A stretch of DNA of 64,000 nt, from positions 29,981,001 to 30,045,000 of the forward strand of contig NC_092568.1 in assembly GCF_037975245.1 (NCBI RefSeq), written 5' to 3'. Numbering within the stretch: the first letter of the stretch is position 1; every line of letters begins with the position of its first letter. Of the stretch, positions 14,517 through 44,247 are shown in pieces. A program made the translations under genes and the position numbers. Under the pieces are notes generated by a model. It did no database searches. It saw only the letters and a program-made list of their open reading frames with translations, and was not told the origin of the DNA. Source of the DNA: Apostichopus japonicus. Lineage: Eukaryota; Echinodermata; Holothuroidea; Aspidochirotida; Stichopodidae.

Positions 14517-16394
14517 CTAATTGTATTTGGAAAAAAAACTATACTTATAGCAATTTGTACTGGCATACAGCTGGCAGAAATGCATATCATGCATGTTCCG
14601 ACTCAGAGGCTTTCTTAGGCAGTCAATAGGGATCTGAGCCTGACCATAGATGCCCTTAGCAAATAAGATGATTCTACTTTGTCTGCGCCTCTCTGCCAAG
14701 GGCACCAGGTTTAGGTCCCGTAATAGAGATGAGACAGAGCCAGGCTCTCTTGAATAATCTGAAGCGATGAAACGGGCTGCACGCCTCTGAATGTTTTCGA
14801 GGTTGTGCTGCAAGAAAGCTTGGTGGGGATCCCAGACAGAACTGGCATATTCCAATACTGGCAGGAGGAGACCTTTATATGCAGCCAATTTTGCATCCTT
14901 CGAACAGGGGGATAAGTTTCTACGAAGAACTCCCAATATCCTATTTCCTTTAATACACACATTTTGAATATGCTTTCCCCAGTTGAGATCTGAAGTGATA
15001 TGAATACCCAGATATTTAACACAATCAACCTTAACCAAGTGAACCCCATTGAGCATGTAATTGAAAATTACAGGTTTCCTCTTTCTAGTAATGGTCATAA
15101 TGTTACATTTCACCGGCTGGAAACTCATGCCCCAATCTTTAGCCCATTGCCCTAGTATATTTATATCTTCCTGAAGTTGATGACCATCACTGACATCATC
15201 GATAACCCGATAACAGACACAGTCATCAGCGAACAGTCGGACACCAGAAGAAACAGCATTACCAATATCATTTATGTAGGCCAGGAAGAGAATGGGTCCC
15301 AGAACTGACCCTTGCGGAACACCGGAAGTAACCTTAGAAGGATTAGACCTAGACCCATTGACAACAACCGACTGCTCTCTATCACTCAGAAAAGCATCCA
15401 CCCAGCAGAGAACCTGATGTGAAACACCCATAGTGTACAGTTTAGATTTCAATAATTCGTGAGGAACAGTGTCAAAAGCCTTCTCAAAATCAAGGATGAA
15501 GACATCCACTTGCTTTCTTTGGTCAAGGGAGGAGGCCCATTCGTTGATGACAGAAACGAGCTGGGTCTCGCAGCTATGGTATTTCCTGAATGCATGCTGA
15601 TTGGCAGACAAGATGTTATTATTCTGGAAATGCTCCATGATATTAGAACTGATTATGTGCTCCAAGAGCTTGCAGCAGATACTAGTAAGGGAAACAGGGC
15701 GATAATTACATGGCGAGGATACATCATTCTTCTTATATATGGGGCAGATGTTAGCAGTTCTCCAATCCCTAGGTAGGCTCCCATCAGTGATTGATTGCTG
15801 GAAAATATGGCTGATAGTTGGAGCAATATCAGTAGCCAATTCCTTAAGTACCCAAGGATGAATGTTATCTGGCCCCACAGCCTTTGAAGTTTTCAAACCC
15901 CGCAGCAGCTTCTCCACTCCAAAGGTGGAGACATGAATGTCATCCATCCTCACACACAAAGGACTTTGTAATGGGATTTCATCTGGGGTATTCCTAGTAA
16001 ACACACTGGAGAACTGCTCATTGAAAGCTTCAGCTTTATCTATGTCACTGAACACTATTTTGTCCTTAGTCTGCAGTGGAGGGATGCAATGTTTATCCTT
16101 ACGTTTACCATTTATGTATTTCCAAAAGGGCTTACAGTCAGTTTTGACATCCCCCAGGATGCCATTTACAAAATTTGTGTGTGAAGCTCTAATTTCTTTC
16201 TTTATTCTTGAGCGCATCTCCACCCATTTGTCATAGATATTGGTCTTTCTAGTTCTTTTGTACAGACTATGCAGTCTGTCGCGCCTTCTGATGAGTCTCT
16301 GAATGTGGGTGGACACCCATGGTAATGACTTCCTACCTGAAGACATCTTTGAAGGTATGTTTCTTTTGACATAGTACTGAATGTTACTGCTGAA
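14517..16394 (-). CDS. Non-LTR retrotransposon reverse transcriptase, 5'-truncated
   Basis: The open frame encodes a LINE-type polymerase that would copy element RNA by target-primed reverse transcription. From ATG 16346 it is 609 aa. In order: LPW segment upstream of the domain (8-10), NYRPVSLTS (214-222), the catalytic-block aspartate in VFILDFEKAFDTV (282-294), SGVPQGSVLGPILF (341-354), FADDC carrying the two catalytic aspartates (372-376), then the thumb region with YLGI. The conserved frame continues 16 codons upstream of that ATG (to 16394) before a TGA, so the ATG is not the original start. The apurinic endonuclease that normally precedes this domain is absent, making this a typical 5'-truncated insertion. 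The polymerase itself has no internal stop. It falls in the CR1/Jockey-like group; I cannot assign the clade further. Confidence 0.9.
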   Translation of the reverse strand, partial: FSSNIQYYVKRNIPSKMSSGRKSLPWVSTHIQRLIRRRDRLHSLYKRTRKTNIYDKWVEMRSRIKKEIRASHTNFVNGILGDVKTDCKPFWKYINGKRKDKHCIPPLQTKDKIVFSDIDKAEAFNEQFSSVFTRNTPDEIPLQSPLCVRMDDIHVSTFGVEKLLRGLKTSKAVGPDNIHPWVLKELATDIAPTISHIFQQSITDGSLPRDWRTANICPIYKKNDVSSPCNYRPVSLTSICCKLLEHIISSNIMEHFQNNNILSANQHAFRKYHSCETQLVSVINEWASSLDQRKQVDVFILDFEKAFDTVPHELLKSKLYTMGVSHQVLCWVDAFLSDREQSVVVNGSRSNPSKVTSGVPQGSVLGPILFLAYINDIGNAVSSGVRLFADDCVCYRVIDDVSDGHQLQEDINILGQWAKDWGMSFQPVKCNIMTITRKRKPVIFNYMLNGVHLVKVDCVKYLGIHITSDLNWGKHIQNVCIKGNRILGVLRRNLSPCSKDAKLAAYKGLLLPVLEYASSVWDPHQAFLQHNLENIQRRAARFIASDYSREPGSVSSLLRDLNLVPLAERRRQSRIILFAKGIYGQAQIPIDCLRKPLSRNMHDMHFCQLYASTNCYKYSFFSKYN

Positions 16395-20578: not shown

Positions 20579-23500
20579 TTATACTTTCAACCTGTGTTTA
20601 TGCATCGCTGTGTAATATGGCATCGCTACTTCAACACAGTACCGTATATCGTCCGGTAGTTCGTCAAGGTTTGGTGGCGGTTTGGCAGGTTGTTTGAACG
20701 CAGAGCTGTACGCAGCTTTGGTTATCCAACCATTAAGCCTGCACGCTACGATGGCTTCATAGGATGTCTTCCACGTTTTGATGACGTCATGTTGACCATC
20801 CCAACGTAAGTACCGCTCCTTAAAAGGAACACCGATCATTTGAAAATATTTGGGGAGTAAAATATCTGGATAAGTGGCCAACTCGTCTCCGTCTATGACC
20901 ACGGGGTATCTACCAGTCTCTTCGATCACAAACTTCCACAATTTATAAGATTTTTTGTAAAGTTCGTCAGACGGGTAAACATCTACGTCATTGACTATGT
21001 TAAATGCCGCCCTCTCTACTTCCGTTACCTCGTTCATGAAAGCCTGTTTGTATGAAAGATACATGTTGCGTGGATCCCTGATGATGAAGGTATACTGGAA
21101 TGCTTTTTTGGAGGGCAGAGAACGATAATGGCCGTCTATGGCGAAAGCTGAGTCCTTCACGAAGATCAAATCTTTGTCACGTTCGTCAGCCTCTAATTGA
21201 CCTTTGACCCAGTCGTATCTGAAAGTGTATTGACAAAAGAAAGTTTGATGGTAATTTATACGTCATCAGTGTTGTACCCAAATACGCTAGAAAGTCAAAT
21301 AATGGTCACTACATCAGTTTAAAGATTCTATAAACCTTTCTTTACCTGCCACGATCGAAGTATTTGCTAATCTCTTAGACATTTAATTGACTAATTGCGC
21401 CCCCTATATAGGATAATATAGATAAAAGGGCCCCCCTATATTTATAATAGATAAAGGGGCGTTACATTTTAACTGGGCACTAGAACCAGGGAGCTGCTAG
21501 AGTAGCAGCTCCCTGCTAGAACCAAAGCGAAGACAGGCGGTGAGGGGTGGGGAGAAAGAACAGTGAGTCATTACAGGTATAACGCCTCTTAACATTTCTA
21601 AGTGTTTAATGGCTGTAAGTTAATTTATAGAGACGAAGTTCTTTCAGAATAATTTGACCAAACCTTCTTACGCTAATCTTTTCAAATTGACTTTGACCCA
21701 AAAACAGATCATAAAATGTCGTTCGGATTAGTTTGTGAATCTTGTCACTATAACATTAAAATAGTACACACTGTATAGGCGACGAAGTTATATTTTCTCG
21801 GTATGTATATCTAACGGGGGAAGGGAGAAATGGGGGACCAAGATGTTAGCATACCGCATCTCCAAAAGAAACTAGTTCAAATTGTTCATGACATATAGAC
21901 TATATACCGCTATATATGGACAAGCTGCAAAGAGAACAGAAACACCTCGCTTGGGTTCTATACCAGTATTAGCTAAATCACAATTTTAAGAGAGATAGAA
22001 GATAAATTCAGGGTGTTGATCTAACCAGGTTAATGCAACTCTAACTGTGAGAAGCATATTCCTGATCAACGGGTGATTCCTAATTTCTTATCCACACAAT
22101 ATTAACCTCTACAAAGAATTAAGGTTGAACTATTGTTTGGTTCTTGAAGTTAGTGGACATTATCATCCATTAGTTTCGGAAAGTTAACTTTAACAGCCCA
22201 CGTTGTACTATGAGAAATCGGCCTATATAGCTCTGCAGGTGATTAAACTTAAAGTTCTACCCGGATAAAAATCCGATTCGATCCGATTCGAATCCGAATG
22301 GTAAGTTGCTTTTATATTATGTTTCTTGTCATTGTTTACTTAAAGGAGACAGTTTCAAGGGAGTATTTCCCCCTTGTATTTGTACAGTCGCTAGGAGGAG
22401 ACATTTGTAAAGAACTTAACTGGTTGTAAACAAGAAAACGAATTGTTTACTTTTATTCGTTAAGGCCTATCTCCAACTGATGTGAATTCTCGTTATACCG
22501 CGATGAACAAGTATAAGGTTTATAAACTCCCTGGTATACCTATGGGTATGGAGCTATACAGCCTATTAACACCTGTATATACGGTAACCGCTAACGGCGA
22601 TATGTATAGGCTGATATATATGTACTCGTGAATGTTTGAAGGTTATAGAGGGAGAGGACGGTTAGGCTGGGTTTACCCTGACGTAAAAAGGTAGATAAAG
22701 ACCTAAAATGCGGAACCGAGGGTGAACCGTGACTATAAGGGGAGTGCGCGTAATGAATACGTTTAGCAAAACATAAATCAGACACATTATTTTATGCAAC
22801 TTTGCCCACAGGTCTAGCTGCATCTGGTTTTCGGCATGAGTTGCAATATACCAACCCTCTTAGTTTCTATCCTCCCCTTAAAGCCCGCCCCTTCCCACAT
22901 TACCCCCCCCCCCAACAAAGCAAGACTTGTAAGCAAGAGCCCAACGGGCACTATAGTTCCTTGCTTAAGTGGAATATTAAAGTGTATATGCATCGCGCAA
23001 TATCATATTTATGCCCAAGTGTACCAGATATTTACCAACAACTTTCTTCCAAATTTGGATACAATCTGATTTAAGGTTGTAGAGTAATTTTATTTTAAAA
23101 ATATTGGCCCCTCCAAAAATATTGGGCCCGATAAAATGTTGCGCTTAAGTGGTTCCAAAAAAAATTGGCCCAAACAAATAAATTTACCAAAAATTGGAAC
23201 ACCCAAAATGTGGGCCCAAATGGTCCGAAAAATATTGGGCTCCACAAAATCGGGCCCAAAGAATGTGTCCCAAAATGTATTTGAGGTGGAAATAAAATTT
23301 GGGCCCACCCGGCCCAAAAATGAGTCCGGAATTGTTTGGGGCCTAGAAGGTCCCAAATATTTAGGCTTACATGTAACATTTATTAACTGACAACTGTATA
23401 CCAAGGGTGGTTACAATCCGACTAAAGGTTGCAGAGTTATTGCAATGTAAAGATTTGTTTACGTATGACCCCATAACCTCATTAATATTCTTAAAGTCAG

Positions 23501-34456: not shown

Positions 34457-40782
<6,326 letters not shown>

Positions 40783-40834: not shown

Positions 40835-41691
40835 GTAAAATAAGTACTCTATCGGGTTGCATCTTAGGTTTCTTTCTTAGCAATTTCAAATCAGTTAGGC
40901 CTATATACCTGACAAACAGCAAGAGCAGACTTTCATCTCGGCCCCAACAAAGTTTGTTATCGTGCACCATTACTGGAGTTGAATTCTACTTTCATATCCT
41001 AGCAATTGGACAAACATCCTAGGCCTAGTTACAACAGTAGCTTTGCCACAACGAGGACTTTATAGTGATACTATAGTAATACTATATGTAGTTAACTTGT
41101 TGCTAGGGTAGGCAAGCCTTATGCTATTGCCCGTCAGTATCACTGCTAGTGACATGCCAAAGGACAGGCGCAGTCTATCGGTAATCAAATACTGATCGAT
41201 AAAAAAAAATCGGTTATAATTATCCTACGAGTTGTACATTTTGTTCAGTTAAAGCCGCATTTCAAATTCTTGGCACCTTGAAATCCTTGTTAAACGTGCA
41301 ATATGCTTTCGTACGTCCCAGCAGTATACAGATTGAGCAGCAACACACTGTTTCGTGGAACCAAGTTTGCCTATAATTTTTTATGAAAATAAGTTGAAGG
41401 TTCCTTTCGCTTTCCATTCCGCAACCATATACCCTGTGAAGTGGTTCACAGTTATATGTAATTTTTTTATATTGTTTTTATTGAAACAATTTTAACAATC
41501 TGAAAAAAGTTCATTGGTCACTTCATTGCCTGAGGTTAAGATGATGTTAAATTGCTGCAGGCGACAAAGCCGGAAGTAGCTTCTATGTGATCAAATCCTG
41601 TGCTACACGATGAAAAAGGTGTCAAAAAGTCCATCGTCATGATAGCGTGATTATTTATTACACAGTAGTATATGAAAAAGATTGTTTAGAT

Positions 41692-41730
41692 CAGGGAGTT
41701 GTTGTGGTTATATTCCATAACGACTCCCTG
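41692..41730. mobile_element. 39-bp palindrome with 7-bp target duplication
   Basis: CAGGGAGTTGTTGTGG and CCATAACGACTCCCTG pair with two mismatches that would be G-T wobbles in RNA. The flanks TTTAGAT match exactly (41685-41691 and 41731-41737), or TTTAGATC if the first C is shared. Same CAGGGAG ends as 21487-21515. Confidence 0.7.
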
Positions 41731-41864
41731 TTTAGATCGTCGAGATTGGGTGTATAGATAGAGGCTTTAAAGTGACTGGACTATGTAATGGTCTAATACA
41801 CAGATCATAACGTCAGTTCCTCAGATGCAACACCAAATTAATTTAGAAAACATATAAATTTGAT

Positions 41865-42519: not shown

Positions 42520-44247
42520 CATTATATTGACCATATTGGTATTGTTGTTAATGACAAGTGTGAAATTGCTAATGTCTTCAACAATTTTTTCGCTAACATT
42601 GGAAGTGAGCTAGCTAGTAAATTCGATTCTAGACCCCACACTCCTTCCACAAATGATACTTTATGTAATTTCCGGTTCCAGACAGTTAGCATTGACTCGA
42701 TTGAGAAGCAACTAAAGGGCCTGTCTGCCGGGAAAGCCACTGGCCTTGACAACATAAGTGCTCGTTTGTTGAGGCTATCTGCCTCCCATATTGCTCCTTC
42801 TCTTACTTATATCATCAACTTCTCACTCTCTCATGGGGTTTTCCCTTCTGACTGGAAGACTGCCAAGGTCTCACCAGTTTTCAAAGATGGGACACGCAGT
42901 CAGGTCGACAATTATAGACCTATTTCAGTTCTGCCAGTTGTGTCAAAAATCTTGGAAAGAGTTGTTCATGATCAACTGTATCAGTATCTAACTAGTAACA
43001 AGATCCTTAACAAATGGCAATCAGGCTTCAGACCTGGTTACTCCACTACTACGGCTCTCAGCTATGTGGTTGATGATATTTTGTCAAACATGGACGGTGC
43101 CTGTGGAAGAAAGAACTACACTGGCATCTTGTTCCTTGACTTTAAAAAAGCTTTTGATACAGTTGATCATGACATCTTGCTTGACAAACTTCGGTCATAT
43201 GGAGTTGTTGACTCTGCATTGGATTGGTTCGGCTCTTATCTTGCGGGCAGATACCAAATTGTTCAGATTGAGAACCAGTATTCAGATATGATGGGAATTG
43301 CATTTGGCGTTCCACAGGGATCTATCATTGGGCCATTACTATTCTCTATATACATAAATGATCTTCCATCTGCCACAAGTGAAGGCCAGGCAATTTTATA
43401 TGCAGATGACACAGCTGTTATTTATAGCTCTGAGAAAATAAGTGAAATACAGCAGGTTCTCTCTACAGATCTTATTCTGATTGGCAAGTGGCTGGTCAAA
43501 AACAAATTGACTTTGAATGTAAAAAAGACCAAAAGTATGCTTTTTGGCACACCAACCATGATGAAGAGAGCTGACCCTCTCATTCTCCATTATGACTCAC
43601 ATGATATAGAACAGGTTCATGTTTTTAGGTACCTTGGGGTGCTTTTGGACAGTACCTTAACTTTCAAAGACCATTTATCTATGATTTGCAAGAAAATATC
43701 CTGCCGTCTTGGGATACTTGGGAGGGTTAAGAAGTATCTTCCACACAAATACAGGATTATGGTGTACAATAGTTTGATAAGCCCCCACTTTGATTATGCT
43801 AGTTGTACCTGGTCTAACACCTGTGCCAAGTATAAAAAATGTCTGGTATCTCTGCAAGGAAGAGCAGGTCGAATTATTCTAGATCTTCCTAGGACTGCAC
43901 CTACAGCTGATGTTCTCTCAGCTCTATCCTGGATCCCTATAGAGCAAAGATGGAATTATCACCGTCAGGTTTTTATGCATAAAATCCACATAGCAGCTGC
44001 TCCTGACTATCTCTGTGACAAGTATGCCCATGTCTCCTCGAGTGAATCTGCCACAAGAGCTTCTACCTCTGGTGGTTTCTGCCTCCCACATTCCAACACT
44101 ATTTGGGGGAGACGTCGTCAAACTTGCCATGGGGTTAATCAATGGAATGCACTGCCTCGGCATATTCGTATGTGCAATAACACTGATACCTTTAAAAATA
44201 AACTAAAATGTGCAATTAAAAATGGCCTGGCTTTCTGGAATCTTTGA
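42520..44247 (+). CDS. Non-LTR retrotransposon reverse transcriptase, 5'-truncated
   Basis: The frame is open from 42520 (just after a TGA) to 44247, about 575 codons; no ATG marks a true start because the 5' part of the element is missing. It begins in the segment before the polymerase (VFNNFFANIGSEL), then has NYRPISVLPVVSK, LFLDFKKAFDTVDHD with a catalytic aspartate, FGVPQGSIIGPLLF, and YADDTAVIY (YADD at 43399-43410) with the two catalytic aspartates, followed by the thumb and the RxxxRGVN-like C-terminal region found in CR1/L2-type elements. The endonuclease domain is absent. There are no internal stops, so truncation is recent. It differs clearly from the element at 14517-16394, so two LINE families are present. 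Confidence 0.9.
   Translation, partial: HYIDHIGIVVNDKCEIANVFNNFFANIGSELASKFDSRPHTPSTNDTLCNFRFQTVSIDSIEKQLKGLSAGKATGLDNISARLLRLSASHIAPSLTYIINFSLSHGVFPSDWKTAKVSPVFKDGTRSQVDNYRPISVLPVVSKILERVVHDQLYQYLTSNKILNKWQSGFRPGYSTTTALSYVVDDILSNMDGACGRKNYTGILFLDFKKAFDTVDHDILLDKLRSYGVVDSALDWFGSYLAGRYQIVQIENQYSDMMGIAFGVPQGSIIGPLLFSIYINDLPSATSEGQAILYADDTAVIYSSEKISEIQQVLSTDLILIGKWLVKNKLTLNVKKTKSMLFGTPTMMKRADPLILHYDSHDIEQVHVFRYLGVLLDSTLTFKDHLSMICKKISCRLGILGRVKKYLPHKYRIMVYNSLISPHFDYASCTWSNTCAKYKKCLVSLQGRAGRIILDLPRTAPTADVLSALSWIPIEQRWNYHRQVFMHKIHIAAAPDYLCDKYAHVSSSESATRASTSGGFCLPHSNTIWGRRRQTCHGVNQWNALPRHIRMCNNTDTFKNKLKCAIKNGLAFWNL

Follow-up and report, generated by a model that had tools for sequence, protein, structure and literature searches.

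The 29-bp palindrome at positions 21487–21515 of the window (the whole 64,000-nucleotide stretch of Apostichopus japonicus DNA that was analysed) is best read, with a probability of about 0.85, as the footprint left when a P-superfamily DNA transposon, formerly situated between two copies of CTAGAAC, was excised, and the genome seems to contain thousands of such excision scars. The scar anatomy resembles that of Drosophila P excision junctions and the target sequence is close to that of Galileo, which is why the palindrome is assigned to the P type. The palindrome, CAGGGAGCTGCTAGAGTAGCAGCTCCCTG, is composed of perfect arms of 12 bp around a loop of 5 nt, and exact copies of CTAGAAC border it at 21480–21486 (+) and 21516–21522 (+), the 7-bp register being that of 67 copies analysed below; the arms, the loop and the flanks had all been described in an earlier sequence-only reading and were all found in place. 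The whole scar (21487–21515, unstranded) decomposes into a remnant of one putative transposon end, the first 13 nt of an A-type inverted repeat (21487–21499, +; full end CAGGGAGCTGCTACTCTAAC), and a remnant of the other end, 18 nt of the A-type repeat in inverted orientation (21498–21515, −), the two pieces having the 2 nt TA in common. Its designation as a P-type footprint is drawn from this layout, from the duplication and from the parallel with another family, family C, whose parents are identifiable.

A second scar of 39 bp was recognised at 41692–41730 (unstranded) by pattern match and decomposition, with B-type ends, altered arms and inserted bases mid-way, and it is flanked by the 7-bp duplication TTTAGAT at 41685–41691 (+) and 41731–41737 (+). 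Two sister inserts had been proposed for the window, of which this one was recovered and the other was not: a scan for CAG...CTG inserts of 14–2999 bp, in which 11 or more of the 12 arm positions had to match and the flanks of 7 or 8 bp could differ by one mismatch at most, returned no third insert in the window, and a more degraded copy would escape such a scan. The window contains two matches to the pattern CAGGGAG-N5..35-CTCCCTG, whereas 100 dinucleotide shuffles yielded none, and in the genome (671.6 Mb, 35 contigs) the pattern is found 3,057 times per strand, compared with 53 times for a reversed control; the palindrome is therefore not a product of chance, and the same genomic excess bears out the proposal that it belongs to a large family.

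Most of the copies examined are built from one of two end sequences, A or B, read inwards from each side. The A-type end is CAGGGAGCTGCTACTCTAAC, whose 20-mer has 381 genome matches, and the B-type end is CAGGGAGTTGTTATGGAA(C), whose 18-mer has 1,690; the window scar at 21487 is of type A and that at 41692 is an altered type B. The fetched sample, whose loci are numbered with the prefix L, came mainly from contigs C1–C5. Three dispersed repeats with an internal scar were encountered in it, namely Y (L068, L075, L095, L114), X (L058, L071, L093) and Z (L122, L131, L132), and since these repeats appear to have multiplied together with their internal scar, raw scar counts overstate the number of independent events.

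The target duplication was assessed in 67 non-redundant copies with both ends perfect, retained from 105 raw places in the fetched loci and the window after places with near-identical flanks in either orientation had been dropped, places less than 25 bases from a locus end never having been collected. At register 7 the flanks were identical in 43 of the 67 copies and differed by at most one mismatch in 53, register 8 was exact in a single copy, and registers 4–6 and 9–11 were exact in none; when flanks were re-paired in 200 trials, 0.77 exact pairs were obtained on average and at most 4. The 7-bp flanks are accordingly a true target duplication marking a transposon insertion, as had been proposed, with 24 of the 67 copies inexact, and of the suggested size of 7–8 bp the value of 7 bp stands and that of 8 bp does not. 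Flank identity no higher than in shuffled sequence had been named as the outcome that would count against the proposal; in the fetched copies the mean identity at register 7 was 87% against 44% for re-paired flanks, and the proposal survived. In 42 of 53 left copies position 2 is T and position 6 is A, a count made without the symmetrisation of an earlier motif table in which both orientations had been counted, so that the target is palindromic; the first base is most often G and the last most often C, with weak preferences at positions 3–5. An empty site is also available, because repeat Y reads GGACATCTCAGGTCC in L070 and L073, with ATCTCAG once, and its scarred copies (L068, L095, L114 and others) read GGACATCTCAG-[25-bp scar]-ATCTCAGGTCC, with ATCTCAG on both sides, which demonstrates that an insertion with a 7-bp duplication took place there.

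These duplications bear directly on the affiliation with hAT elements that the sequence-only reading had entertained. CAGGG-type termini are common among hAT elements, and the palindromes could on that account be footprints of hAT transposons. However, hAT elements make 8-bp duplications, and their excision leaves the duplications with a few altered bases and not 10–20 nt of both ends. With exact duplications of 8 bp in 1 of 67 copies against 43 of 67 at 7 bp, and with T2 and A6 together in most left copies, a hAT origin is barely credible.

The middle of each scar is the junction between two end pieces. In a list compiled without anchoring on complete ends (46 of 50 listed genome places, four identical copies of a 40-bp scar having been omitted, from which 2 were then removed as an unrelated 37-bp repeat), one end was complete to GGAA in 25 of 33 B scars and complete to 20 nt in 7 of 11 A scars, the B template being 18 nt in this list and 19 nt in the join decomposition. 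Most sites of the join decomposition had been located by searching with a complete end, which inflates its complete-end counts; the unanchored list is the less biased of the two. When the B end was taken as the 19-nt CAGGGAGTTGTTATGGAAC, with its last C adopted from other families, an overlap of AAC was present in 23 of 33 insertion-free B joins against 8% expected from uniform breakpoints. The tip AAC could pair with one or the other of two GTT in the opposite tail, and these alternatives would yield the recurrent 28- and 25-bp B forms. The 15 insertion-free A joins showed no overlap in 6 cases, one base in 8 and two in 1, and the microhomology argument consequently rests on B. In 19 of the 67 scars, bases had been inserted or altered in ways that a plain join does not explain. 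At L033 and L074 one end is kept to its last base and the other is lost, the scar ending inside the duplication, and at L037 20 nt of A are followed by 9 other bases and then by Y sequence about 60 bp further on than in uninterrupted Y. Signatures of end joining are hence present in the CAGGGAG scars, as microhomology in B, inserted bases and the flank deletion of L037, with microhomology weak in A. Past 20 nt (A) or 18–19 nt (B) the next bases vary from site to site or belong to the opposite arm; the A and B templates themselves stop at the presumed cut, so that longer retention would be visible solely in the test with family C described below.

Several compound scars were also observed. Two or three direct tandem 19-nt A-type end pieces lie inside the scars at L020:1501, L025:1501-1539 and L040:1501, and these look like the templated insertions of end joining. 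At L053:1494-1566 (C1:3254298-3254356) and at L082 two scars stand head to tail with nothing but one 7-bp duplication (GTCTAAC in L053) between them, as if one target had been hit twice, the pair at L082 being a mixed A/B scar and a B scar; and at L141:59-135 (C5:7317428-7317504) a 29-bp A-type scar is followed by 28 bp of other sequence and a complete A-type end in the opposite orientation.

The sequence-only reading had taken the short palindrome for a mobile unit, and ultra-short non-autonomous elements of 24–40 bp, moved by a transposase that recognises CAGGGAG ends, would indeed account for thousands of copies with true 7-bp duplications and for identical 25-, 28- and 29-bp forms recurring at unrelated sites. 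The recurrence of the 25- and 28-bp B forms, however, is predicted by the pairing of AAC with either GTT, many other forms are unique joins with inserted bases, an end or flank has been lost on one side at L033, L037 and L074, and the near absence of a spacer between the ends would presumably leave little room for a synaptic complex. With repair-type junctions inside the palindromes, and with family C possessing a parent and longer copies beside scars of the same kind, mobility of the palindrome itself was given up as very improbable. MITEs are likewise short, palindromic, flanked by a target duplication and high in copy number; they have transposed themselves, whereas the CAGGGAG palindromes look like repair products and the diversity of their junctions speaks against a mobile unit.

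Family C consists of P elements with identifiable parents in the same genome, in which 12 places match PF12017 (Tnp_P_element) and 45 match PF21787 (P-type RNase H domain). Two related copies, one on C13 and one on C17, have about 8 kb in common at 95–97% identity, with P-transposase domains inside the element. The C13 copy (C13:12995314-13003493) carries 32-bp inverted repeats CACTGATCTACACTAACTGGATAGGCTGCGCG, its left flank ends in ACTGCGCG and its right flank begins with ACTGCGC (seven bases read). The end of the family-C parent runs for 17 nt, CACTGATCTACACTAAC, to AAC and then continues with TGG; the 20-mer CACTGATCTACACTAACTGG retrieved 42 parent-type ends, from which 16 convergent pairs were formed, 2.2–24.7 kb apart. 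The corresponding scar pattern, CACTGATC-N4..33-GATCAGTG, has 199 matches per strand against 2 in the control. Family C (the C13 copy and 15 other convergent end pairs) resembles the CAGGGAG types in the kind of scar and possibly in retained ends that do not pass an AAC, and differs from them in its ends (CACTGATC), in the presence of paired-end copies, in the 17 nt to AAC and in one 8-bp duplication, GTTGTATC, at the scar of L004. Eight partial P-type RNase H matches were also seen clustered within about 0.7 Mb at C16:5352856-6080033, all on the minus strand.

The length of end retained in family C bears on the distinction between transposase-cut tails and internal-deletion derivatives, which would have arisen by abortive gap repair or replication slippage within a larger element. 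Such derivatives would likewise have the order duplication, end, end, duplication, and gap repair that aborts and is completed by end joining is, according to one study (PMC2895639), a common sequel of P excision. They predict, however, ends of all lengths past the cut, and AACTGG, that is AAC with the next bases of the parent, where parent ends continue with TGG, was present in 0 of the 49 family-C scars listed out of 199 matches; the search patterns for scars allowed short middles alone, and longer derivatives would not be listed. Among the listed ends of the parent's own type, 1 of 26 extends over all 17 nt and no end is longer. Most of the remaining ends belong to a longer variant of the family-C end, CACTGATCTGTACACTAAC, with two extra bases, and 13 ends stop exactly at its AAC (19 nt). 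Over all family-C ends listed, 14 of 98 stop at AAC, 13 of these 14 being of the longer variant, and 5 of 98 match one base beyond; the sole parent type read is the shorter end, and the continuation TGGATAGG was read from it and appended by analogy to two longer end variants. A one-sided flank deletion such as that of L037 moreover presupposes a break at the end of the element or close to it, and on this evidence the origin of the scars by internal deletion is judged improbable. Retained ends that do not pass AAC are to be expected of a P transposase whose cuts are staggered by 17 nt, and family C behaves as a positive control for the P-type excision reading, with a P-domain parent, matching inverted repeats and scar ends that do not pass the cut point, although a single parent-type end attains the full length and the other 13 exact stops are of the longer variant.

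The scars would then be produced as follows. A P-type transposon would insert and duplicate 7 bp, the duplication being the one observed across the family; on excision, the transposase would cleave the 3' strand at the edge of the element and its partner strand some 17–20 nt inside each inverted repeat, and each chromosome end would retain a 3' single-stranded tail of the terminal repeat, as suggested by the biochemistry of Drosophila P. The tails may pair at short complementary stretches and be trimmed or filled, with end joining probably of the polymerase-theta microhomology type, and the product would be duplication, repeat piece, inverted repeat piece and duplication, which is the layout observed. 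For A and B we infer the strand polarity and the tail length, as well as the parent itself. Several observations weigh against the P-type reading: the fetched places contained no parent of the CAGGGAG scars; the exact stops in family C are nearly all of the longer end variant; the presumed tails, 20 nt in A and 18–19 nt in B, exceed the 17 nt of Drosophila P; microhomology is slight in the A joins; 24 of the 67 duplications are inexact; and the 40-bp A scar (20+20 with no overlap) has no obvious origin as a 3'-tail product unless the self-complementary AACGTT helps.

The proposed sequence of events can be compared with what is described for P elements. In P transposition one strand is cleaved 17 bp inside the 31-bp repeat, leaving 17-nt 3' extensions, according to a review (PMC7776569). 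In the P{wa} assay of Chan, Yu and McVey 2010 (PMC2895639, Table 1), Drosophila P junctions consist of a duplication, as many as 17 nt from one end, a microhomology or inserted bases, as many as 17 nt from the opposite end in inverted orientation, and a duplication; deletions and templated insertions were also recovered, and polymerase theta is involved in the repair. The CAGGGAG scars have the same anatomy as those junctions, which were induced, in one laboratory construct, with an 8-bp duplication; here the scars are natural, the duplication is 7 bp, the presumed tails are 18–20 nt and no parent was found. Galileo, a member of the P superfamily in Drosophila, has 7-bp duplications with the palindromic consensus GTANTAC (PMC2775673, PMC4168063), and the 7-bp duplications of the CAGGGAG scars are loosely similar to it. 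The known copies of Galileo are long and bear long repeats that are themselves internally repetitive, whereas the CAGGGAG families are represented here by scars with CAGGGAG ends alone. Among the titles and abstract openings listed from open-licence papers in PubMed Central, no description was found of P scars on a genome scale or of such ultra-short palindromes.

A parent of the CAGGGAG scars was sought from their ends. Among 50 A and 70 B fetched places, drawn from 2,071 end matches genome-wide, none entered a shared interior; the 120 places amount to about 79 distinct ones (32 different left flanks for A and 47 for B), since a number of repeats have a scar in their interior. Seven places were without a second arm or a nearby duplication (A: L027, L031, L037, L042; B: L047, L050, L100), and no two of them had a common 10-mer in the next 40 bases. 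The base that follows 18 nt of B is C in 32 cases, A in 12 and T in 3, and that following 20 nt of A is A in 17, G in 8, T in 4 and C in 3; inspection by eye of 58 B places with unusual next bases revealed scars and single cases and no recurring interior-like continuation. By analogy with family C, CAGGGAG..AACTGG was counted 151 times against 128 in the control, which is no clear excess. Three convergent B pairs were present among 100 matches listed (with 3 divergent), two of the three being scars already read, and the 100 A matches listed contained one convergent pair of 24 kb plus five short ones of 40–77 bp.

A minority of the P-gene places was also examined for candidate parents. The P gene of L077, a 764-aa ORF with all four P-transposase domains, has no CA-starting repeat pair with a 7–8 bp duplication within 7.8 kb, the three weak pairs there having arms matching at 9–11 of 14 positions and two mismatches in the flanks. 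No CAGGGAG end pair was seen with the P copies on C3 and C17 (L142 and L143, 99.2% identical) or in the P gene flanks at C3, C19 and C21, of which the C3 flank has a B scar nearby, and the C13/C17 P family, whose ends are different (CACTGATC), was rejected as the CAGGGAG parent and served instead as the positive control. At L148:1719 and L015:274 the distance from a B-type scar to P-transposase-like sequence is no more than about 2 kb, a proximity that may be due to chance. As the sample contained no parent of A or B, their membership of the P superfamily is argued from layout, duplication and the family-C parallel and not from a transposase.

A tentative extension, which we consider possible rather than probable, is that the CAGGGAG P-type families, once present at some thousands of sites, are gone completely or nearly, with excision scars as their sole record; their disappearance would follow from excision having been repaired by end joining and not by copying back. 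A bolder version, in which the elements survive in the germ line and were excised from the somatic DNA that was sequenced, fits poorly with the apparent age of many scars, seen in mismatched duplications and in scars multiplied inside X, Y and Z.

P excision scars as such are already known, and what would be new here is a natural record of P-type excision and repair on a genome scale. If the P-type reading is correct, a single animal genome has kept the traces of thousands of natural transposase breaks, with their defined ends and the way in which each was repaired, and the choice of microhomology, templated insertion and flank loss would become readable over evolutionary time in a non-model animal. 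The stagger of P-type transposases could likewise be estimated without biochemistry, at 17 nt for family C and about 19–20 nt for the CAGGGAG families, and scars would offer a means of detecting transposon families of which no other trace is left. By the same token, a very short palindromic insert with a target duplication is not necessarily a mini-transposon.

Other features of the window were noted in passing. The sequence at 37520–37700, which scores as a long palindrome, consists almost entirely of AT dinucleotide repeat over about 180 bp and was set aside as a simple repeat unrelated to the scars. Two long reading frames with reverse transcriptase domains (PF00078) occupy 14517–16394 (−) and 42520–44247 (+) and are probably non-LTR retrotransposons, and at 1070–2230 (−) fucosyltransferase domains (PF00852, PF17039) are encoded in a frame that stays open for 386 codons.
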